Of a DNA stretch of 64,000 bases, positions 3,121 through 63,129 are shown piece by piece. The notes beneath the pieces were generated by a model. The model ran no database searches. It was not told the DNA's origin and saw only the letters and a program-made list of their open reading frames with translations. Made by a program: the position numbers and the translations under genes. Source of the stretch: Enterococcus sp. 9D6_DIV0238 (lineage in GTDB: Bacteria > Bacillota > Bacilli > Lactobacillales > Enterococcaceae); the NCBI RefSeq assembly GCF_002174455.2, contig NZ_CP147246.1, forward strand, positions 1,267,501 through 1,331,500, read 5' to 3'. Position 1 is the stretch's first letter. Each line of letters begins with the position of its first letter.

Positions 3121-3177
3121 CTCCTCTAAGAGCTGCTACACAAAATATGCAGCGAATGCGAAAACAAAACCGCGTAT

Positions 3178-3280
3178 GATTAGAAAAGCCAGCTCGTGCT
3201 TCTTTTACCTCATACTTCGTCCGAAAGGCAACATCCCATCCTTTCAGCACTTGACGCTTTATTTCCTACTCTGTTTTTAT
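3178..3280 (-). promoter_or_regulatory. THF riboswitch (tetrahydrofolate aptamer) in the folT leader
   Basis: Read on the minus strand, the leader contains GCGUCAAGUGC, then AAAGG-AUGGGAUGUUG-CCUUU, then GGACGAAG, then AGGUAAAAGAAGCACGAGC. This order of conserved blocks, with a P3 hairpin displaying GGGAUGU and a GUGC/GCAC P2 pairing, matches the THF aptamer as I remember it. A downstream hairpin with GCTGC/GCAGC arms (about 3130-3152) sits just before the AGAGGAG ribosome site and could be the expression platform. High THF would then reduce folate import. The boundaries are approximate. Confidence 0.78.
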
Positions 3281-14740: not shown

Positions 14741-14906
14741 ACAAAACCTGAGAGATTCGTCTTCTCATCGAAGAGTTGCTCCTTCGGTGCCTATGCTTTC
14801 CAGAGTGATGTCCAATTACGGTCCGTTTACCTGAGATCTTCATAATAAAGGGTGCGCCAATTATTATTTATTCCTTCGGTGCTGTCAGTCAGTCTCTCCC
14901 GTAATT
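14735..14906 (-). promoter_or_regulatory. Tandem glycine riboswitch
   Basis: Two glycine aptamers in series are seen on the minus strand. Each has the conserved core CACCGAAGG (about 14872-14880 and 14781-14789) followed by CTCAGG (about 14829-14834 and 14748-14753). Aptamer 1 is closed by TTACGG/CCGTAA; aptamer 2 by CTCTG (14801-14805) pairing with CAGAG (14735-14739). The second P1 strand competes with the downstream terminator, so glycine binding should let transcription into gcvT: an ON switch for glycine degradation. Confidence 0.95.
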
Positions 14907-15023
14907 TTCTTCCATCAAATCTATTTTAACTTCTATGTTTTTAACGTTGAGATAAATAAACGAACGCCTATACTTAAAATTTACCATAGATCCATTTTTT
15001 ATCCCAATCATTCTCCTTTTAGC

Positions 15024-42891: not shown

Positions 42892-44143
42892 CTTCACCTA
42901 CCTCCATTCCATCTTTCATGCCTGTTTTTGGTAGTGCGATCTTATCCGTTTGCGCAAGCCCTTCGTTGACTGACATTAAATTTTCACCGACTGGTGTTCC
43001 TTTGATTTCATGGCGCTTGATTTTATTGTTGTCTATTTTCCATACATATTGTTTATTATCTTGTGAAAGGATATATTGTTTATTTAAAATAATTTTGCCG
43101 CTTTCAAATTCTTTGGGCAACACTTTTACATAGACATGAGAACCAATGATCGGCATTTGATCCGTCTTGTCGATTAGGACTTTGTAAGGAAATTTAGATA
43201 AGTTGGGATCTTCGTCTTGTTTCTTGTCTTTTCCTGCTTCATCTGAGCTTAAATTAGCAACTTGAACGATTTTCCCCTGCCACTTCTTATCTTTATTTTT
43301 TCTGTCGATCAATTCTACTGGTTGATTTAGTGACACTTTTTCTCTATCAAATTCATTGATATCACCGTTGACAAATAGATTCGAATCGTCAATGATTTCC
43401 ATAAAACTTTCTTCACGCTGCTTTTCTTTCGATTGGTTGATCAAATCCATATTCAATGATTTGATCGTACCAGCATTATCTGCAACGATCGTATCTGCAC
43501 CTAGTCTCTCCTGTTCATTCGTTTGCATCAACTGGGCTTTTTCCAGTTCGCTTTCTGCGTTCTTTACTTCATTATCTCCCGTCAACCCTTCTGTATACGC
43601 TTGGTCGACTTCACCTTCTAATGTCTTGATTTCACCTTTTAACTCTTCCGTATTCTCTTTATCATAATCTGCCTTTGCCTGGTTCAATTGTGCTACCTTT
43701 TTATTGTAAGTTTCCCATTTGATTCCAGCACTGCTTCTTGCTACTTCAACGGCTCTGGCTTTAGCTTCTGCATCCAGTTCAGCTTCTTTTGTTTTCATTT
43801 GCTGATCTGTTTGATAGGTAAATAGTGCTTGACCTTTTTCTACACGATCTCCTTCTTTGACTAAAACTTCTTTGACGGTTCCTTTATCAGGGTCGATTTT
43901 TATTTTATTAGTGTTATTCGCTGTCACTTTACCAGCTAAGGTCAAATCGCCCGCTTTACTTTCTTCAACTAAAGATTTGACGCTTCTTTCTTCCACTTTG
44001 TTTTCTGGATTAGATGCATTTATATTTTGCTCTTCAGAAGAGCTGAATGCATTTATCACTATAAAAGTAATTAGTGCGACGATCACAATCGCAAAACCTA
44101 TCAATAGAATTTTTTTTCTATTTCTTTTTCCTACGGCTCTCAT
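42878..44143 (-). CDS. HlyD/MacA-like membrane fusion adaptor (YknX type)
   Basis: A 421-residue adaptor. An N-terminal helix (ILLIGFAIVIVALITFIVINAF) anchors a periplasm-facing chain with a split biotinyl-lipoyl domain (LTLAGKVTANNTNKI and GTIKSLNMDL), a long alpha-helical hairpin with coiled-coil character (residues ~115-215), and C-terminal beta domains. In Gram-positives this design (YknWXYZ) exports or neutralises toxic peptides. It precedes the ATPase and permease genes. Confidence 0.9.
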   Translation of the reverse strand: MRAVGKRNRKKILLIGFAIVIVALITFIVINAFSSSEEQNINASNPENKVEERSVKSLVEESKAGDLTLAGKVTANNTNKIKIDPDKGTVKEVLVKEGDRVEKGQALFTYQTDQQMKTKEAELDAEAKARAVEVARSSAGIKWETYNKKVAQLNQAKADYDKENTEELKGEIKTLEGEVDQAYTEGLTGDNEVKNAESELEKAQLMQTNEQERLGADTIVADNAGTIKSLNMDLINQSKEKQREESFMEIIDDSNLFVNGDINEFDREKVSLNQPVELIDRKNKDKKWQGKIVQVANLSSDEAGKDKKQDEDPNLSKFPYKVLIDKTDQMPIIGSHVYVKVLPKEFESGKIILNKQYILSQDNKQYVWKIDNNKIKRHEIKGTPVGENLMSVNEGLAQTDKIALPKTGMKDGMEVGEDVKP

Positions 44144-51298: not shown

Positions 51299-52024
51299 TT
51301 ATTTTGCAGAAACTCGTTTTCCATCTTTATATGCATACACTCTTCCTAAAGAATCTTTGGCTACATATTGGTAATTTTTTTGACCGCTAACATTTCTAGG
51401 TGCAGGTGATCCTTTTGGAACCAGTACTACTTTATAAGCTTCTAAACGCTTAGACAAACCCGCTGTTCCAGCTTTATGAGCAGTCGATTTACTATCTTCA
51501 GTTTTTGATTTTGCTTTAGACCAGCCTAACCAGCCATAATCTTGTGCATGAACACAATAATACATATCGTATTGCTGGGCTAAGCTACCTGTTAAAGTGA
51601 ATTCTACCGCTTCTACTCTCAACGCACCTCCAGCAGTTCCCCCTCGACCTGCTTGATAATAAATCGTTGTGTTTCGCCCTTTGATATTTCGTTTAGAGAC
51701 ACCGGCACTTTTTTCCTTAGCTGTTAGTTTTTCAGATAACCAACCGATATTTTCTACATGTGTATTGATCGAAATATCTGTGCTTCCTTTTATGAACATC
51801 GCTTCCATTCGTTTCGATTGTCGCACGGAACCACTACCTGTACCAGAAGGACCCATTTCTGCTATCGTCCTAAATCGTTTGTCCTTACCAAAACCAGTAT
51901 CTCCATAATCCTGTACGTGAGAACCAAAACGTAGATCATTGATAGAAGCCGCTTCTGTATTCACCCCAAATGAACAGACTCCTCCCAAAAAAACAAGCGC
52001 TAACACAAATAGTTTCTTTTTCAC
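51299..52024 (-). CDS. Secreted protein with ChW repeats
   Basis: A 241-residue exported protein. A signal peptide (KLFVLALVFLGGVCSFGVNTEA, cleaved near residue 26) is followed by three copies of the ChW (clostridial hydrophobic Trp) repeat: one from SHVQDYGDTGFG with a long insert to RMEAMFI, one from THVENIGWLS to RVEAVEF, and one from VHAQDYGWLGW to RLEAYKVVL. The first copy lacks the usual Trp. There is no lipobox, LPXTG or enzyme domain, so it is probably released or held by its repeats. Possible roles are substrate or host-surface binding. Confidence 0.8.
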   Translation of the reverse strand: MKKKLFVLALVFLGGVCSFGVNTEAASINDLRFGSHVQDYGDTGFGKDKRFRTIAEMGPSGTGSGSVRQSKRMEAMFIKGSTDISINTHVENIGWLSEKLTAKEKSAGVSKRNIKGRNTTIYYQAGRGGTAGGALRVEAVEFTLTGSLAQQYDMYYCVHAQDYGWLGWSKAKSKTEDSKSTAHKAGTAGLSKRLEAYKVVLVPKGSPAPRNVSGQKNYQYVAKDSLGRVYAYKDGKRVSAK

Positions 52025-54721: not shown

Positions 54722-54781
54722 CAAATTAAAAAAACTTCGCCAGACTTATTCAAAAATTAAAAGAATAGGTCTAACAAAGTT
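54722..54781 (-). terminator. Terminator of the tldR-guide RNA transcript
   Basis: On the minus strand a 19-bp stem (54763-54781 with 54733-54751), held in part by G-T pairs, is followed by TTTTTTT. It lies about 20 bases after the putative guide and defines the 3' end of the guide RNA precursor. Confidence 0.88.
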
Positions 54782-54799
54782 CTACTTTTTATTTTTCAT

Positions 54800-54812
54800 C
54801 AACTAATAATTA
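54800..54812 (-). other. Predicted guide segment of the TldR guide RNA
   Basis: The 13 bases TAATTATTAGTTG follow directly after the scaffold end (hairpin plus AGTTCAC). Bases 1-8 and 11-13 match the plus strand at 63076-63088 near oppA, where the match is preceded by TTTAA. The guide length is not known, and the first 8 bases are the uninterrupted part. Confidence 0.65.
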
Positions 54813-54940
54813 GTGAACTATTTCTATTGAATAGAAATTTCCTAGAAAAAGATAAATGATCGAATCATCGCTGTATCTACCTTATATTCCCTAGGCTAAC
54901 CCTGTAGTCCCTACAGTTTTTGATAAATGTTTTTAATAGC
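54813..54940 (-). ncRNA. Guide RNA scaffold (omega-RNA-like) overlapping the tldR 3' end
   Basis: On the minus strand after the tldR stop come three nested structures. The first is CTGTAG-GGA-CTACAG (54902-54916). The second is a larger arm closed by CCTAG/CTAGG (54891-54895 with 54841-54845) that contains ATGAT-TCG-ATCAT and AGATA/TATCT. The third is the perfect hairpin ATTTCTATTCAATAGAAAT (54820-54838) followed by AGTTCAC. A final hairpin plus TTCA-like end resembles the right end of IS200/IS605-type elements, where TnpB guide RNAs stop and the guide begins. The 5' boundary within the gene is unknown. Confidence 0.75.
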
Positions 54941-56045
54941 TTAATCCTTTGTTCAAAACATGGATACTCGCTGCTGTTTCTGGATCAGAAGCTCCTTTTT
55001 GTTTGTCGATATCTTCAAGAAAGATCTTACTTTGTTTTTTATTTTCTGAATGTTCAGAACATTCATTGCAAGCAGAAACCTTGATCAATCTTTTATTATA
55101 CCAAGAAGCTTTATATTCTAATTTTGAAACAAACAATGCCCAAGATACATCTGAAATTCCTCGATGAAGTTTTCTATTTCTATAAACTTCTGTTTGATGA
55201 ATATCTTCAATGCATATGACATCATATTTACGAACGATTTCTGTTGTAATTTTATTTAAAAAATCTGTTCGCTGATTCATTAATTTTTCCCGCATTTTAG
55301 CTACCTTCAATTTTTGTTTCTGATAGTTTTTTTGCTGGGATAGTTCTATACCTTTTACTTTAGCAATTTCTTTACGCCTGACTAGTTTTCTTTCTTCACG
55401 TGCAAGCCGCTGCTCGAATTCTCTGGTGTACTTATCATTATCGATACGTCTACCGTTTGATAGCACCGCAAATTCAGAGGTACCTAATGTGATCCCTATA
55501 GCAGAGTAGGTTTTCTCTACTTCCGGAACTTCCTCTTCACAAAGGATCGAAATGAAATACTTATGACTAGGTGTTAAAGAAATCGTTGCTGACTTTATTT
55601 TTCCTTTTATCGGACGATGCATTTTCACTTTCATTGGCGTTTTTAATTTAGGAACCTTTATACATTTATCATCGATGATTTTGATCGTTCCATTTTGATT
55701 GTTGGTCGTATAAGATGAAACAGAATCTTTCTTTTGTTTCAACTTGGGGAAACCCACGCCTTTTTCTCTATGAAATTTTTTAAATGCTCGATCCAGATAA
55801 ACTTGTGCATTCGCTAAGGCCAAACTATCTACTTCTTTTAAACAAGGATGCTCTTTTTTATATTGAGCAGGTGTCGGTAGTTTGACAGTAAGATCGGGAT
55901 TTTCTTTCAATGCTTTATAAAGAGCGATCCGATCCTGAAGCAAAAGATTATACACAAGACGAACACAAGAAAAAGTTTTTTTTATAAACTCCTCTTGAGC
56001 GGAGGTAGGATAAAGCCGATACTTATAAGCCTTTAAAACCCTCAT
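54933..56045 (-). CDS. tldR: TnpB-like nuclease-dead protein (TldR, oppF-associated)
   Basis: A 370-residue TnpB homologue (N-terminus RVLKAYKYRLYPTSAQEEF). Catalytic residues are lost. RuvC-I reads AIGITLGTSEFAVLSNG, with Thr186 where TnpB has Asp. RuvC-II keeps Glu280 (VICIEDI). RuvC-III reads SDPETAASI instead of DxNAA, so the Asp is out of register. Only one CxxC (Cys326/Cys329) of the zinc ribbon remains. The reading frame is intact, so the protein is kept under selection as an RNA-guided DNA binder rather than a nuclease. No tnpA or left end is present. It lies downstream of oppF in the same direction; I recall oppF-linked TldRs described in Enterococcus. ATG 56045 is chosen because AGGGTGG lies seven bases upstream (ATG 56051 is too close). 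Confidence 0.9.
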   Translation of the reverse strand: MRVLKAYKYRLYPTSAQEEFIKKTFSCVRLVYNLLLQDRIALYKALKENPDLTVKLPTPAQYKKEHPCLKEVDSLALANAQVYLDRAFKKFHREKGVGFPKLKQKKDSVSSYTTNNQNGTIKIIDDKCIKVPKLKTPMKVKMHRPIKGKIKSATISLTPSHKYFISILCEEEVPEVEKTYSAIGITLGTSEFAVLSNGRRIDNDKYTREFEQRLAREERKLVRRKEIAKVKGIELSQQKNYQKQKLKVAKMREKLMNQRTDFLNKITTEIVRKYDVICIEDIHQTEVYRNRKLHRGISDVSWALFVSKLEYKASWYNKRLIKVSACNECSEHSENKKQSKIFLEDIDKQKGASDPETAASIHVLNKGLSY

Positions 56046-56062
56046 GAACATACCACCCTACC

Positions 56063-56530
56063 AATAAAAAGCTGATTGAGCCGGTTAGCTCTGACCGAAA
56101 AATAGGAAAATACGACTGAGGCGCTCTTTGCCTCATTCTCATTTTATCTTTTTTCTGAAGAGCTGGCTCAAGAAGCTAGATTAAATAAAAAGCTGACTGA
56201 ACCTATTAGCATCGATCAAAAATAGGAAAACATGAGAATGGCGTTTTTTGCCATAATCAGGTTTTATCTTTTTTGCGAGATGCTGGCTCAAGAAGCTAGA
56301 TTAGATAAAAAGCTGATTGAGGCGTTCAGCTTTTGAGTAAGTTAGGAAATGACTAAAAAGATGCTCTTTATCTTTGTAGTCATTTATCTACTTACCGAAA
56401 AAGTTACCTCAAAAAGCTGGATTAAATAAAAGCTGATCAAGCCGATTAGCTCTGACTGAAAAATAGAAAATATGACTGCTACTTTTTTGCCTCATCCTTA
56501 TTTCATCTTTTTCAAAACAACTCATTACTT
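56063..56530 (-). repeat. Four tandem ~120-bp structured repeats between oppF and tldR
   Basis: Units begin at 56063, 56184, 56304 and 56425 with (A/G)ATAAAAAGCTGA, a period of 120-121 bp. Read on the minus strand each unit is one long hairpin: an outer stem AGCT-TTGAGCC with GGCTCAA-AGCT, and an inner stem around the loop AAAGAGC. Unit 1 has TGAGGC/GCCTCA inside, unit 2 ATGGC/GCCAT, unit 3 a long AAATGACTA/TAGTCATTT. The outer stem of unit 3 changes GAGCC to GAGG with a matching change on the other side, and unit 2 uses G-T pairs. Unit 4, nearest oppF, is decayed. They follow the oppF terminator and precede the tldR ribosome site. Confidence 0.85.
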
Positions 56531-56540
56531 GTTAAAAATC

Positions 56541-56575
56541 CTAGCTAAGAAAAAAGTATTTTTTCTTAGCTAGTC
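56541..56575 (-). terminator. Terminator of the opp operon after oppF
   Basis: CTAGCTAAGAAAAA (56541-56554) pairs with TTTTTTCTTAGCTAG (56559-56573). On the minus strand it is followed by GATTTTTAAC. It separates oppF from the repeat array and tldR. Confidence 0.8.
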
Positions 56576-56592: not shown

Positions 56593-57552
56593 TTATCCTA
56601 GATTCGCTCTGGCTTTTTTCTCTTCAATTTTTTTACGATAGACATCCACTTCGTCTTCCGAGCAATATACGTAATGTTCAGGAGTGATTTCTCTCAATTT
56701 ACGTTCTTTATTGTCTTCTGGCTGTGGTTTATAAACGATACGTTTACGTGTGCGTTCATAATCTGGATCTGGTAATGGGATCGCTGATAATAAACTTTCT
56801 GTATACGGATGAACGCCAAAATTATATACATCATCACTTGAGCCCATTTCCAATAATCTACCACTGTGCATCACACCGATTCTATCACTGATATGTTTTA
56901 CCATTGATAGATCATGAGCGATAAACAGATACGTCAATCCAGCATCTTTTTGCAGATCCTGCAGCAAGTTAACGACCTGTGCCTGAATCGATACATCCAA
57001 TGCCGAAATCGGCTCATCACAAATGATGAAACGAGGATTCACAGCTAATGCACGGGCAATTCCGATCCGTTGACGCTGACCACCTGAAAACTCATGCGGA
57101 TAACGCGTACCGTGACTTGGATCAAGTCCTACGACTTTTAAAAGCTCATTGACCTTCTCTTCACGCTCAGCAGGTGTACTGGCTAAATGATTGATATCGA
57201 TTCCTTCAGCAATGATGTCATTGACTTTCATTCTTGGATTCAGTGAAGCATAAGGATCCTGAAAGATCATTTGAACTTCGCGACGGAATTCCTGCATTGC
57301 TGATTTTGAATGAATTTTACTGATATCTTCCCCATCAAAAATGATTTCACCATCTGTTGGGTTATATAAGCGAATCACGCTACGGCCAGTCGTTGATTTT
57401 CCACTACCGGATTCTCCAACTAAACCAAATGTTTCGCCTTCATAGATATGAAAACTAATATCGTCAACCGCTCTGACTTCATCAGGACGGCCCACGTTAA
57501 AGTATTGTTTCAAGCCTTTAACATCTAAAAGTACTTTTCTTTTTTCACTCAT
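56593..57552 (-). CDS. oppF: Oligopeptide ABC transporter ATPase OppF
   Basis: A 319-residue ATPase with Walker A GESGSGKST, signature FSGGQRQRIGIARAL and Walker B FIICDEPISALDVS, plus the C-terminal oligopeptide/dipeptide extension (PLPDPDYERTRKRI). It pairs with OppD to power peptide import. The start overlaps the oppD stop (TAATG). It is the last opp gene and is followed by a terminator, then the repeats and tldR. Confidence 0.97.
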   Translation of the reverse strand: MSEKRKVLLDVKGLKQYFNVGRPDEVRAVDDISFHIYEGETFGLVGESGSGKSTTGRSVIRLYNPTDGEIIFDGEDISKIHSKSAMQEFRREVQMIFQDPYASLNPRMKVNDIIAEGIDINHLASTPAEREEKVNELLKVVGLDPSHGTRYPHEFSGGQRQRIGIARALAVNPRFIICDEPISALDVSIQAQVVNLLQDLQKDAGLTYLFIAHDLSMVKHISDRIGVMHSGRLLEMGSSDDVYNFGVHPYTESLLSAIPLPDPDYERTRKRIVYKPQPEDNKERKLREITPEHYVYCSEDEVDVYRKKIEEKKARANLG

Positions 57553-58613
57553 TACTTAACGCCTCCTGTTGCTGTCTTATGACGTTCAGCATAAATTGCC
57601 CAACGTCTAACGATTTCTGCTGGAGGTGTGATTTTTGGTGCTTGTGGCGCCAATAACCATGTCGCAGCTTTATGAGTTGGTGAAACTTCAAAATAAGGCG
57701 GCGCTTCTTCTGCATCGATTTTCATTGCGAACTCATTACGCGGATAAAAAGCATCTCCTTTTGGCGGATCCAATAAGTCAGGAGGTGAACCTGGAATCGC
57801 ATATAGCTTATCTTCTGTTCCTTCCATCGTCGGCATTGAGCCAAGTAAGCCCCACGTATAAGGATGTTGAGGATTATAGAAAATTTCTTCTGATGTCCCA
57901 ACTTCTACTAAACGTCCGCCATACATTACGGCTACACGATCAGCAACATTGGCAACGACCCCTAGATCATGGGTGATAAAAATGATCGATGTGCTGATTT
58001 TTTGTTGTAAGTCTTTTAATAATTCTAAAATTTGTGCTTGGATCGTTACATCCAATGCAGTTGTTGGTTCATCGGCAATCAGAACTTCTGGGTAACAAAT
58101 CAAAGCGATCGCAATAACGATCCGTTGACGTTGTCCGCCTGAAAATTGGTGAGGATAGTTTTTCAAACGTTTTTCGGCATTTGGAATCCCTACTAATTTC
58201 AATAGTTCCAGTGCTTGCTCTAATCCTTCTTTTTTCGATACTTTATTATGCTTGATCAACGATTCAGCTACTTGTTTGCCAATCGGCATCGTCGGATCCA
58301 ATGACGTCATCGGATCTTGGAAAATCATTGCGATTTCTTTCCCGCGAATCGTTTGCATTTGTTTTTCTGTTTTCTTAACGATATCTTCGCCTTTGAACAG
58401 GATTTCTCCATTATCAATGTTTGCATTACTACTCAACAAACGCATGATACTTCTAGTCGTTACTGATTTACCACTACCAGATTCTCCTACGATCGCAAGT
58501 GTTTCACCTTTGAACAATTCAAAGCTGACACCGCGAATAGCATTTACTTTTCCAGCAAACGTATCAAAAGAAATCTGTAGGTCTTTTACTTCTAATACTT
58601 TTTCCATAGTCAT
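57552..58613 (-). CDS. oppD: Oligopeptide ABC transporter ATPase OppD
   Basis: A 353-residue ATPase with Walker A GESGSGKSV, signature FSGGQRQRIVIAIAL and Walker B VLIADEPTTALDVT, and a C-terminal extension with AIPGSPPDLLDPPKGDAFYPRNEFA-type sequence. Peptide ABC ATPases carry a Cys-containing or similar tail here. The start ATG 58613 lies five bases after the oppC stop; ATG 58607 is an alternative. Confidence 0.96.
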   Translation of the reverse strand: MTMEKVLEVKDLQISFDTFAGKVNAIRGVSFELFKGETLAIVGESGSGKSVTTRSIMRLLSSNANIDNGEILFKGEDIVKKTEKQMQTIRGKEIAMIFQDPMTSLDPTMPIGKQVAESLIKHNKVSKKEGLEQALELLKLVGIPNAEKRLKNYPHQFSGGQRQRIVIAIALICYPEVLIADEPTTALDVTIQAQILELLKDLQQKISTSIIFITHDLGVVANVADRVAVMYGGRLVEVGTSEEIFYNPQHPYTWGLLGSMPTMEGTEDKLYAIPGSPPDLLDPPKGDAFYPRNEFAMKIDAEEAPPYFEVSPTHKAATWLLAPQAPKITPPAEIVRRWAIYAERHKTATGGVK

Positions 58614-58618
58614 TCACT

Positions 58619-59671
58619 CTACTCTTTCATCTTAGGATCGAAGGCATCACGTAGACCATCAGCTAGTAAGTTGAAACAAATCATTACTATCGATAGTGTT
58701 ACGGCAGGAATCCACATTAAATATGGAAGGAAACGGAACGTTTTATATCCTTCATTCAACAAGGTTCCAAGAGAAGCGGTCGGCGGTCTTAATCCTAAAC
58801 CGATGAAACTTAGAAACGCTTCGAAGAAAATTGCCGACGGGATACTGAACATCATTTGGACGATGATCACGCTAGAAATATTCGGCAAAATATGTTTTAC
58901 GGCAATCTTCAAACGAGATTCACCTAATGTTTGAGCGGCTAGTACAAATTCTTGGTCTTTCAGCTTCAAGGTCTGTGCCCGAACGATTCTGGCCATTGAA
59001 ATCCAGTTAGTGATAACCATCGCCAAAACGATCGATAAGATACCTGGATCAAACACTGTCAGCATCAAGATCATTACAACTAAGTTAGGGATTCCTGAAA
59101 GAACTTCAAGAATACGCTGCATCACTGTATCGACACGTCCGCCTAATAATCCTGAAATCAAACCATACGTAACACCGATCGTGATATCAAGTAAAGCAGC
59201 AATAAAAGCGATCAATAACGAGATACGTGTTCCCATGAACAAACGGCTTAACACATCACGTCCTAATCCATCTGTTCCTAAATAGAAGTTCACATTATCT
59301 GGAACATTAGCTTGTGCATACTTATCAACCACTTGTCCAGCTACTGTAGCTGTCCCATTGAAGCCGTTGATGCTATCTAAAAATGGAATGCGTGGCGGTA
59401 AATTGATATATGCAACGTTTTGTTGAGTTGGATCATGTGGTGAAACCCAAATCGTAATAATTGAGATAAAGATAATGATCCCTAAAAAGATCAAGGAAAC
59501 AACAGCAGCTTTATTCTTTTTCAAACGACGCCAAGAATCTTGCAAAAAGCTTAGTGACGGTGTTGCGATTCGTTCCCGCTCTTTTGTTGTTGAAGTATCT
59601 AAAGGCTGGAATTCACCAGCAGGAATATTTTTGATTTTATCTGGTACATTGTTTAAATCAACTGTTTGCAT
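58619..59671 (-). CDS. oppC: Oligopeptide ABC transporter permease OppC
   Basis: A 350-residue permease with a long cytoplasmic N-terminus (about 50 residues), six helices and the inner-membrane EAA loop (SRLKIAVKHILPN, with the following Gly-rich part). The first helix is VVSLIFLGIIIFISIITIWV. It forms a heterodimer with OppB. The start overlaps the oppB stop (TAATG). Confidence 0.96.
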   Translation of the reverse strand: MQTVDLNNVPDKIKNIPAGEFQPLDTSTTKERERIATPSLSFLQDSWRRLKKNKAAVVSLIFLGIIIFISIITIWVSPHDPTQQNVAYINLPPRIPFLDSINGFNGTATVAGQVVDKYAQANVPDNVNFYLGTDGLGRDVLSRLFMGTRISLLIAFIAALLDITIGVTYGLISGLLGGRVDTVMQRILEVLSGIPNLVVMILMLTVFDPGILSIVLAMVITNWISMARIVRAQTLKLKDQEFVLAAQTLGESRLKIAVKHILPNISSVIIVQMMFSIPSAIFFEAFLSFIGLGLRPPTASLGTLLNEGYKTFRFLPYLMWIPAVTLSIVMICFNLLADGLRDAFDPKMKE

Positions 59672-60612
59672 TAGCCACGGTCACCTCCTGAAACACGAAT
59701 TCTTGGATCGATCAATCCATAAAGTAAGTCTACGACTAAAATAACAAATACTAGTAAAGCAGAATATAAAATCGTTACAGCCATGATCGTTGGATAATCA
59801 TTGGTCATGATCGATTTTACAAACTGTTCCCCGATACCAGGGATCGCGAAGATATTTTCAACAACTAGAGACCCTGTCATCAAACCGACAGCTAAAGGTC
59901 CTAATAATGTGATCAATGGAATCAAACTATTTCTAAGTCCATGTCTAACAGCAACTTGCCAACGGCTCAAGCCTTTAGCACGTGCTAATTCTACATAATC
60001 ACTATGTAATACCTCGACCATTTCCGTTCGAATAAACCTGGCGGAATCTGCCATTGGACTCATAGCTAGTGCAATAGTTGGAAGAATCGTGTAAGCAAAA
60101 CCATTCCACATTGCAATTGGCAACACTTTTAATTTCATTGCAAATACATACTGTAACAATACGGCAAAGACGAAGTTAGGAATCGAACGTCCTAAAATAG
60201 CCATTAACGTTGCCAGTGTATCCACCCAAGTATTTTGGCGCATCGCAGCAATGATCCCTAAAAGAATCCCTACTAATGTACCGAAAATAATCGCTTGTCC
60301 ACCTAATTGGACGGATGGTCCGATACGGCCTGCTAAAAGTTTTGCTACTGGTTGGTTTTTGAATTGGAATGAGATCCCAAAATCACCGACTAGCAGATTT
60401 TTTAAATAAATTCCATATTGAACGATGACTGGTTTATCTAAGCCAGATTGTTTATTCAACATAGCAATTGTTTCTGGACTAAGTTTTTCTTGGTTGGTAT
60501 AAGGAGTACCTGGTAATAATTGCATCAAGAAAAATGTAATAGTCGCGATCAACCACAATGTGATGATCATAAAAAAGACCCGTTTAAGAAAATATTTTCC
60601 AAAACTGTTCAA
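59671..60612 (-). CDS. oppB: Oligopeptide ABC transporter permease OppB
   Basis: A 313-residue permease. TTG 60612 is taken as the start, because GGAGGTG lies six bases upstream and the protein then begins with the family's LNSFGKYFLKRVFFMI; a longer frame to 60741 runs into the region opposite another gene. The EAA motif is AVRHGLRNSLIPLIT. The promoter for oppBCDF must lie within the short divergent interval 60613-60694. Confidence 0.94.
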   Translation of the reverse strand: MNSFGKYFLKRVFFMIITLWLIATITFFLMQLLPGTPYTNQEKLSPETIAMLNKQSGLDKPVIVQYGIYLKNLLVGDFGISFQFKNQPVAKLLAGRIGPSVQLGGQAIIFGTLVGILLGIIAAMRQNTWVDTLATLMAILGRSIPNFVFAVLLQYVFAMKLKVLPIAMWNGFAYTILPTIALAMSPMADSARFIRTEMVEVLHSDYVELARAKGLSRWQVAVRHGLRNSLIPLITLLGPLAVGLMTGSLVVENIFAIPGIGEQFVKSIMTNDYPTIMAVTILYSALLVFVILVVDLLYGLIDPRIRVSGGDRG

Positions 60613-60694
60613 GAATGACACCTCCGAGATTATTTTGACTTCATCAGCTTTTTTCGATAAAGTAAGGATAGAAAATTTAGATAAGGATGAGCAC

Positions 60695-61042
60695 ATGAAT
60701 AAACTAAAATGGCCTCTCATAACTTCAGCGGTCTCAAGCATCGGTATTTTTACTTACCTATTAATAAAACAGTCATTGACTATCCGTTCCATATCAGATA
60801 CCTTTTTCATCGTTTCTTTATTCTTTTTAATTATCGGATTGGCCCTTTGGGTCATGTCCTCAGAATTTTTTGATAATTTCCAACGTTTTATGAAAATGCA
60901 TTTTCGTTTTAAAAAGAAAAATGAACCGAAAGAATTTATCCCACTTTCAGAAATCGGTAAAGCACATCAGCTTTACTGGCTTGAAACAGGCGGTATCTTA
61001 CTGATCGTCTCTATTGTTTCTTTATTATTTTACTTTTTATAG
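60695..61042 (+). CDS. DUF3899 family membrane protein
   Basis: A 115-residue protein with three membrane helices (LITSAVSSIGIFTYLLI, TFFIVSLFFLIIGLALWVM and GGILLIVSIVSLLFYFL) and a charged loop (RFKKKNEPKEF). I assign it to DUF3899 from memory. It lies on the opposite strand inside the opp locus, between oppA and oppB, and starts 83 bases from oppB. AAGGATG precedes the ATG. Function unknown. Confidence 0.72.
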   Translation: MNKLKWPLITSAVSSIGIFTYLLIKQSLTIRSISDTFFIVSLFFLIIGLALWVMSSEFFDNFQRFMKMHFRFKKKNEPKEFIPLSEIGKAHQLYWLETGGILLIVSIVSLLFYFL

Positions 61043-61348: not shown

Positions 61349-63022
61349 TTATTCTGAAATGTATGTCCATTTGAAATCATATTGCGCACCAGCTGGGTGG
61401 AAGCCAACATCTTTGACTTTTTCAGCACGTAGATGTGCTTCTGCTTTTTGGTAAAGCGGAATGACACCCATGTCGCCCATGATTGTTTTCTCTGCGTTGA
61501 CCATGTCATCCCAACGTTTTTCAGGATCATTTGCATTGGTTGTTGCAGCAGATTTCACTAATTTATCATATTCAGGGTTGCTATAACGTCCACGGTTATA
61601 TGGTACGCCTGTTTGGAATAGATCTAAGAAACTACTTGGATCTACATAGTCAGCTCCCCATCCACCGATAACAGCTTTAAAGTCTCCTTTGTTTGAACGA
61701 TCCAAACGTACAGAGAATGGCACCGGACTAACAGTGACTTTCACGCCATCAAGTGCTTCTTCGATCGCACCTTGTACATATTCAACTGTTTTCTTAGATG
61801 AGTCAGCATCAGAAGATAAGATGTCCATTTCCAATGAATCGATCTTCAATTCTTTCTTCGCTTTTTCCCAATATTCTTTTGCTTTTGCTTTATCGTATTC
61901 GATCTTATCGCCTGCAGCCGCTGTAAAGTCTTCTTTTCCATCAGGATCTTTAGACATATCTGCTGGAACAAGTCCTTTAGGTTCAACTGAGCCATCACCT
62001 AAGATATTTTCTACTAATGATTTACGGTCGATTGAATAAGAAATTGCTTTTCTTAAGTTTTCGTTTCTATATGGTGAATTTTCATCGATTTGATTCAATT
62101 CCATATATTGTGTTGATGCTTCTTTTTGAATAACTAATGCTGGATCGTTAGCTGCTTGTTGTGCAAGCTCACCAGTCAAGATAACATCGTCTGCTTGACC
62201 GTCTTGGAATAAGTTATAAGAAGTTGGTGCTTCTTTTACAACATTTGTTTTCACTTCGTCTAGCTTCACAGTGTCAGCATCCCAGTAATCTTTGTTTTTC
62301 TTGTAAGACCATTCAGTATCAGTACCTGGTCCGTCAAAGTCAGCTAAAACAAATGGTCCGTTATAAACAGCATTGTCGCTATTTGCAGCGTATTCTTTAC
62401 CATATTTTTCCACAATATCTTTTCTTTGCGGGAAGAATGAAGGGAATGCTAATAGATAATCAAAGTATGGTGTTGCTTTTTCTAAAGTAACTTCTAATTC
62501 GTAGTCACCTACTGCTTTGATTCCTAGCTCACCTTTGTCTTTTTTACCTGCTGCGATATCTGCTCCGTTTTTAACAGACTCGAACAAGTAAGCATATTCT
62601 GAAGCCGTTGCTGGATCAACTGTACGTTGCCATCCATAAACATAGTCTTCTGCTTTTACAGGTTGACCGTCAGACCATTTCGCATCTTCGTTCAACTTGA
62701 TTTTGTAAGTAACCCCATCTTCACTGACTTCAGCTTTTTCAGCCGCACCAGCTGGTTGTGGATTATTATCTAAATCCAAACGATAAATTCCTTCATACAC
62801 ATTATTTAATGCTGTAAAACTGATCGTATCTGTTGCTAGTGATAAGTCAGCACTTGGCATTTCTTGTAAAACGTTCACTCGGAATACTTGCTCTCCACTT
62901 GGTTTTCCACCAGTTGATGCAGCACTGCCTGAGTCGTCTGTTTTTCCACCATTGCCGCACGCAGCAAGTGATAAACTAAATAAAGTGATGAATCCAAAAG
63001 CAAATGACTTCTTTAACTTCAT
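61349..63022 (-). CDS. oppA: Oligopeptide-binding lipoprotein OppA
   Basis: A 557-residue substrate-binding protein. The signal peptide ends in the lipobox LAAC with Cys22. Characteristic SBP family 5 segments are YKIKLNEDAKWSDGQPV, NENLRKAISYSIDR-like ENLRKAISYSIDRKSLVENIL, and VIGGWGADYVDPSSFLDLF. It captures extracellular peptides, and in enterococci Opp-type uptake also brings in signalling peptides. It is separated from oppBCDF by a gene on the other strand, so it has its own transcript. Its promoter region contains the predicted target of the TldR guide RNA. Confidence 0.96.
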   Translation of the reverse strand: MKLKKSFAFGFITLFSLSLAACGNGGKTDDSGSAASTGGKPSGEQVFRVNVLQEMPSADLSLATDTISFTALNNVYEGIYRLDLDNNPQPAGAAEKAEVSEDGVTYKIKLNEDAKWSDGQPVKAEDYVYGWQRTVDPATASEYAYLFESVKNGADIAAGKKDKGELGIKAVGDYELEVTLEKATPYFDYLLAFPSFFPQRKDIVEKYGKEYAANSDNAVYNGPFVLADFDGPGTDTEWSYKKNKDYWDADTVKLDEVKTNVVKEAPTSYNLFQDGQADDVILTGELAQQAANDPALVIQKEASTQYMELNQIDENSPYRNENLRKAISYSIDRKSLVENILGDGSVEPKGLVPADMSKDPDGKEDFTAAAGDKIEYDKAKAKEYWEKAKKELKIDSLEMDILSSDADSSKKTVEYVQGAIEEALDGVKVTVSPVPFSVRLDRSNKGDFKAVIGGWGADYVDPSSFLDLFQTGVPYNRGRYSNPEYDKLVKSAATTNANDPEKRWDDMVNAEKTIMGDMGVIPLYQKAEAHLRAEKVKDVGFHPAGAQYDFKWTYISE

Positions 63023-63070: not shown

Positions 63071-63088
63071 TTTAATAATTATTTATTG
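63071..63088 (+). promoter_or_regulatory. Predicted TldR target site with TTTAA motif upstream of oppA
   Basis: TTTAA (63071-63075) is followed by TAATTATTTATTG (63076-63088). Bases 1-8 match the first eight bases of the predicted guide at 54812-54805 exactly; positions 9-10 differ and 11-13 match again. The site lies between the oppA promoter and the oppA start, so bound protein would block elongation or start-site access. Confidence 0.6.
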
Positions 63089-63100
63089 TATCTGAGGTAT

Positions 63101-63129
63101 AGTTTACAATTTTTAAATTAAAAAATCAA
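63101..63129 (-). promoter_or_regulatory. Predicted oppA promoter
   Basis: On the minus strand TTGATT (63124-63129), a 17-bp spacer and TAAACT (63101-63106) lie about 80 bases before the oppA start. An alternative with TTGTAA, 17 bp and ATAAAT would place its -10 on the guide target itself. Both are moderate matches. Confidence 0.5.

Follow-up and report, generated by a model that had tools for sequence, protein, structure and literature searches.

An opp-closing, nuclease-dead TnpB homologue of Enterococcus as a probable RNA-guided repressor of the oppA promoter

TnpB-like nuclease-dead repressors (TldRs) were reportedly described by Wiegand et al. in 2024 (Nature 631:439), and oppF-linked TldRs of Enterococcus are said to be listed there. 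TldRs are already known as a kind, and tldR, the gene reported here from a 64,000-nucleotide stretch of Enterococcus sp. 9D6_DIV0238 (contig NZ_CP147246.1, positions 1,267,501 to 1,331,500; hereafter the window), is one more. It has in common with them an inactivated TnpB, an adjacent guide RNA, a promoter target, linkage to a non-transposon gene and a short seed that suffices. In contrast to the flagellin TldRs, which are prophage-encoded and act on host flagellin, it is chromosomal and closes the operon whose promoter its guide matches. The TnpB proteins of IS200/IS605 insertion sequences (IS) of the E. columbae/E. cecorum type (L022-L024, L026-L029) are 53-57% identical to its product. These elements have similar RNA scaffold ends and TTTAA at their left end, but their TnpB proteins keep intact RuvC motifs and zinc finger, their guides are unlike, and G033, G046 and G030 each contain several copies. 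The Rfam family Ref70 (RF02841) is matched in the window at full length and over its cut-off; what differs is that it is here the predicted guide RNA of tldR.

We consider it probable that this TnpB homologue, which has lost two of the three cutting residues, was domesticated as an RNA-guided TldR that binds the oppA promoter and lowers opp expression. A preliminary description of the same DNA had proposed exaptation as an RNA-guided repressor; the lost residues, the selection on the gene, the RNA and the promoter match support this proposal, and from these sequence features we infer binding and repression. The elements concerned are the following.

54933..56051, minus strand: tldR, nuclease-dead TnpB homologue, 372 aa (open reading frame, Pfam, motif losses, ratio of nonsynonymous to synonymous substitution rates (dN/dS), structure model)
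54801..54922, minus strand: guide RNA (scaffold and guide start), Rfam Ref70 RF02841 (124.1 bits, cut-off 115, full length; covariation)
54792..54812, minus strand: guide TAATTATTAGTTGATGAAAAA, seed TAATTAT at 54806-54812 (follows AGTTCAC; the 3' end of the guide is only assumed)
54733..54781, minus strand: likely terminator after the guide, a hairpin followed by a T run (by eye)
63071..63083, plus strand: predicted operator, antisense to oppA, with the target-adjacent motif (TAM) TTTAA at 63071-63075 and the target TAATTATT at 63076-63083
63101..63129, minus strand: likely oppA promoter, TTGATT (63129-63124), 17 nt, TAAACT (63106-63101) (read from conservation)

The tldR product is a TnpB homologue both by sequence and by the fold of its predicted model. 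Counted from the second Met (56045) it has 370 residues, the numbering used here, in agreement with the open frame of that length noticed before. Pfam recognises the helix-turn-helix and transposase domains of OrfB_IS605 (PF12323, PF01385), while the C-terminal TNB domain scores under the Pfam cut-off, as does the whole protein against NCBIfam IS200_TnpB (342.9 bits, cut-off 425). An alignment with active TnpB had been named earlier as a check. Aligned with seven intact TnpB proteins from other enterococci, the product has two of the three catalytic residues substituted. GIDLG of RuvC-I reads GITLG, with T186 in place of Asp, exactly as had been claimed, and DRDINAS of RuvC-III reads DPETAAS. 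The catalytic Asp of DRDxN is the second one, as in Cas12a and ISDra2 TnpB; its place is taken by E356. Because the first Asp of the motif is kept, RuvC-III is aligned in register yet substituted, so that the loss of this Asp in the preliminary description stands but its being out of register does not. The RuvC-II Glu is retained (E280). Hence, the intact RuvC triad expected of an IS200/IS605 TnpB nuclease is not present in this alignment. The zinc finger is also broken: one CxxC is left (CNEC), while the second, which had been reported missing, is gone, as is the WFPSSQ segment in front of the first. Of 22 sequences of the genus, 19 have Thr at the RuvC-I position and three have Ser (L018, L019 and L021); the E. 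faecalis-like copy L025 has Cys there.

The reading frame of tldR is under purifying selection, as judged from sequence comparison. In 21 of 22 genomes of the genus the gene occurs once and without interruption, with no inner stop in any of the 21 copies, where frameshifts in most orthologues had been named as what would speak against exaptation. The median dN/dS across orthologues, another check proposed earlier, is 0.07 (0.070, from 105 of 231 pairs) versus 0.067 for intact TnpB; only the C-terminal end is relaxed (dN/dS 0.23; per-segment values come from 66 to 99 of these pairs). G007, the sole genome of the genus without tldR, is also without an oppF match at E 1e-130. In all 23 loci of the clade (the window and 22 further loci), oppF lies directly upstream of tldR; the two are 40 nt apart in G024 and as much as 896 nt apart in other loci. 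Genome G024 very likely belongs to E. faecalis, since the mevalonate diphosphate decarboxylase it encodes is one residue off PDB 6e2s, a protein of that species, in the aligned core. A truncated form of 209 aa (P0124, a relative of L025) has 48 member sequences, versus 867 in the full-length cluster P0121; the E. faecalis-like species may include strains with a disrupted tldR.

The region matching Ref70 adjoins the 3' end of tldR directly and is predicted, from its position and sequence, to be the guide RNA of this gene. Rfam describes RF02841 as 'Enterococcus sRNA 70', without a function. The model scores over its cut-off in 18 genomes (147 relatives), always directly 3' of tldR, and in none of 14 controls; in an earlier search of 13 of 30 loci, six were over the cut-off and seven under it (L018-L021 and three intact IS copies). 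At lower scores it marks places behind other TnpB and TldR genes, so that Ref70 appears to be the tip of a TnpB guide-RNA family. An alignment of 23 sequences contains four helices with 99.3% of cells paired. Two-sided changes occur at 11 of 25 pairs, versus a mean of 4.1 in shuffled alignments (0 of 500 as high) and at most 4 in slid controls. The likely terminator behind the guide was not listed by the terminator scan, its loop being too long, but similar hairpins are found in many relatives.

The start of the guide was placed by comparison with mobile relatives. In 18 of 18 intact IS copies the right end reads GAGTAGTTCAC and is followed by unlike flanks; since the boundary motif AGTTCAC here precedes TAATTATTAGTTGATG, the guide would start at 54812. 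Its first seven letters, TAATTAT, are identical in all 23 clade members, and the guide of L015 differs at position 8. In the literature searched, we did not find Ref70 described as a TldR guide. A search on the word ref70 returned no Enterococcus title among the matches listed, and a term search found neither Ref70 nor the gene names in the main text of the E. faecalis Grad-seq and RNA-map papers PMC10117718 and PMC7724050. Other 'ref' RNAs were named by Fouquier d'Herouel et al. (PMC3166299), and Ref70 presumably comes from the same work.

TTTAA is found at the left end of 17 of 18 intact IS copies; in the remaining one, L203, the left end could not be aligned. The plus strand of the window reads TTTAATAATTATT at 63071-63083, that is, this TAM followed by eight guide letters, exactly. 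All 23 of 23 clade loci have the same TTTAATAATTATT in the oppA promoter, at -56 to -62 relative to where oppA starts. It is antisense there and comes shortly after the conserved TTGATT-17-TAAACT, a little beyond the predicted start site. When 21 clade promoters were shuffled, even TTTAATAATTA arose only 26 times in 4200 shuffles. The preliminary description had credited this copy with its own guide and target, which accords with the predicted guide 3' of tldR and the predicted operator at oppA. The promoter itself has only 8 of 12 consensus letters, and a generic scan for a sigma-70 site at oppA found none. In a recent TldR study (PMC13418256), 6-nt guides suffice and the seed is 6 nt, so that seven to eight letters plus the TAM would in principle be enough. 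Each of six genomes searched whole has one of its TTTAATAATTATT sites at oppA, and G024 has no other. TAM plus nine guide letters (TTTAATAATTATTA) occurs in three of 22 genomes of the genus, at oppA in G015 and elsewhere in G004 and G022. Separately, AATAATTATTAAA, an antisense TTTAATAATTATT, stands about 66-69 nt before another peptide-transporter ATPase gene in six of 19 genomes (L228, L230, L231, L234-L236). It is a candidate second TldR target, although the six occurrences are perhaps one event because their carriers are related species.

On this basis, opp transcription with some read-through would yield both TldR and guide. The protein would bind the Ref70 guide RNA, and the complex would find and open the TTTAA site at oppA, where an R-loop at about +11 to +23 would hinder initiation, promoter escape or early elongation and so damp the operon. 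Because tldR follows oppF, read-through would feed the repressor, and the outcome would be negative feedback on peptide uptake.

A second, more eroded clade was found in other enterococcal genera. Its shorter TldR-like proteins are 37-46% identical to that of the window, and RuvC and zinc motifs were not found in them. Of 21 such genes, hand-picked from a longer list, 16 lie directly after oppF (L256, L258-L263, L265, L267-L270, L273-L276), and these resemble the window tldR in site, seed and predicted target gene. The guide starts with TAATTAT after CAC in 21 of 21 loci. In all 16 oppF-linked genomes, TTTAATAATTA is present on the sense strand of an oppA promoter, inside the spacer between -35 and -10 (e.g. 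TTGATT-TTTTAATAATTATTAAT-TAAAAT); nine sites match at least seven guide letters and seven match six. In this clade the seed would thus be directed at the spacer and block RNA polymerase binding. By sequence comparison, guide seed, TAM and target gene are common to both clades, while operator position and strand differ. Since the short clade shares TTTAA, seed and target gene, the antisense reading of the operator in the window's clade is favoured. We lean, by a modest step past even, towards regarding the opp-closing dead TnpB and the orphan small RNA Ref70 as a core feedback loop on peptide uptake, common to many enterococcal genera, in which the seed stayed fixed while the operator moved from the spacer to past the start site and its strand flipped. 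Among genomes without an oppF-linked copy, none of five has the site at oppA; gene order confirmed this oppA as that of the same operon only in G034, and not in G031, G032, G045 and G087. In G034 (L255, 13000-13568), the opp operon is present, tldR and guide RNA were not found and the operator site has diverged; the entire circuit may have been lost naturally in this genome. The remaining short genes carry the same guide seed. L264 closes another ABC peptide-transporter operon and L277 follows a similar oppD-like gene, while no opp match was found in the stretch taken for L266, L271 and L272; the L266 gene lies beside genes resembling acetyltransferase, RlmN and FtsK.

Two independent domestications at the same site were suggested at first, as the window clade shares up to 57% identity with intact IS TnpB but 37-46% with the short proteins linked to oppF. 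The shared RNA features CGCCTAGGG...TTTCTAGGAA (by eye), the same seed and the same locus speak for one origin, and a single ancient domestication behind both clades is favoured by these sequence features. A tree of 57 rows joins the two clades weakly (support 82/50), and the approximately unbiased (AU) test rejects neither alternative topology (p 0.28 and 0.52). Five near-duplicate TldRs of the genus were left out of the first tree, and the wrong-frame row otherTnpB_G025 and eight near-duplicates out of the second.

Several points weigh against a repressor acting at oppA. Binding by TldR, an effect on opp expression and repression are what we infer from the sequences. The match comprises 8 nt (7 nt in L015), and in most species the guide does not match at positions 9 and 10. 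Across the six whole genomes, TTTAATAATTATT has 1 to 4 sites per genome versus 1 to 5 for the reversed letters, i.e. no enrichment. That TTTAA, common to all aligned IS copies, would be target DNA outside the element is an analogy with IS200/IS605 insertion. The divergent clade members G005, G012, G017 and G022 score under the Ref70 cut-off (66.6-78.6 bits). In short-clade stretches, six further oppA-like matches are without TTTAATAATTA, two of them being the second oppA genes of their operon. A terminator-like hairpin separates oppF from tldR, so co-transcription of the two remains a prediction; tldR would be reached by read-through or from another promoter. Finally, the Glu at RuvC-III and the kept RuvC-II Glu make residual metal binding conceivable.

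The alternative that comes closest retains the repressor but turns the site round, with the sense target TAATTATTA (9 nt) behind a changed TAM, ATAAA. Nine guide letters match there, the ninth being A in 23 of 23 guides, which also counts against the antisense site; TAATTATTA occurs at three places in the window, the third at 44143. We judge this orientation unlikely: the five preceding letters vary (ATAAA, GTAAA, ATTAA), whereas the antisense TTTAA is invariant in 23 of 23, the short clade has TTTAA at its site, the antisense target of L017 pairs over 12 of 13 letters, and the TAM at the candidate second site is that of the antisense reading and not of the sense one. Still less probable is that Ref70 acts as an ordinary small RNA pairing with the oppA leader, with the protein a mere chaperone. 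The target does lie inside the predicted oppA 5' leader and holds the palindrome AATAATTATT, so that the guide could pair with oppA mRNA too; but in the short clade the matching letters fall between what look like the -35 and -10 boxes, where they are not transcribed, and TTTAA at both sites is the TAM deduced from intact IS, which RNA-RNA pairing does not need.

The loss of two catalytic residues and of the zinc finger, the relaxed C-terminal end and the truncated P0124 in a relative would also fit a functionless, decaying transposon relic. This is scarcely credible, since dN/dS is close to that of intact TnpB, the frames are intact and the guide RNA shows compensatory changes; decay was ruled out on the first two grounds. 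Equally hard to credit is a still weakly active nuclease using the Glu at RuvC-III. The RuvC-II Glu is kept and Asp to Glu is a mild change, but the RuvC-I Asp has become Thr, Ser or, in L025, Cys, and a nuclease that cleaved a conserved promoter in the chromosome of its host would likely do damage.

Read in this way, tldR suggests a function for a small-RNA family that Rfam lists without one, and its guide, TAM and operator are predicted with the precision that a simple reporter test requires. An RNA-guided transcription factor would then be among the stable genes of an entire genus, and very likely in an E. faecalis genome, acting on nutrient uptake and not on a phage trait. The predicted repression of opp would be a natural counterpart of CRISPR interference, and two lineages that share a seed but place the operator differently would be a natural experiment on the co-evolution of regulator and target.

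The genes upstream of tldR, on the same strand, are oppA-B-C-D-F; downstream are a HAD hydrolase gene and infC.

61349..63022, minus strand: oppA, peptide-binding protein, first gene of the operon (PF00496)
59671..60741, minus strand: oppB, permease (PF00528)
58619..59671, minus strand: oppC, permease (PF12911, PF00528)
57552..58613, minus strand: oppD, ATPase (PF00005, PF08352)
56593..57552, minus strand: oppF, ATPase (PF00005), adjoining tldR
56541..56573, minus strand: terminator-like hairpin between oppF and tldR (hairpin scan)

Similar hairpins follow oppF in most of the gaps inspected by eye, though not in G024 or G015. No transposase was found among the neighbours of tldR in the window, and nothing in 23 oppF-tldR gaps matches the left end seen in intact IS relatives. 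The earlier statement that neither transposase nor transposon end flanks the gene is therefore correct for the transposase and the left end, but the right end persists as the guide RNA.

About four tandem, imperfect palindromic repeats of some 120 nt lie between oppF and tldR (56067-56530). The unit belongs to a dispersed, often tandem family. Of 60 genomes searched, 18 contain it, all from a single genus; 17 of these have 15 to 36 matches each and the other has two, counts that may be underestimates because not all candidates were scored. The repeats were rejected as a part of the tldR system, given this dispersal and their presence in G007, which lacks tldR. Matches to microRNA families of Rfam at 56317-56412 were likewise discarded, being under their cut-offs and inside the repeats. 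Elsewhere in the window, on the minus strand, are a tetrahydrofolate (THF) riboswitch (3148-3275), a glycine riboswitch (14809-14911) and a gene for a protein with clostridial hydrophobic W (ChW) repeats (51299-52024).
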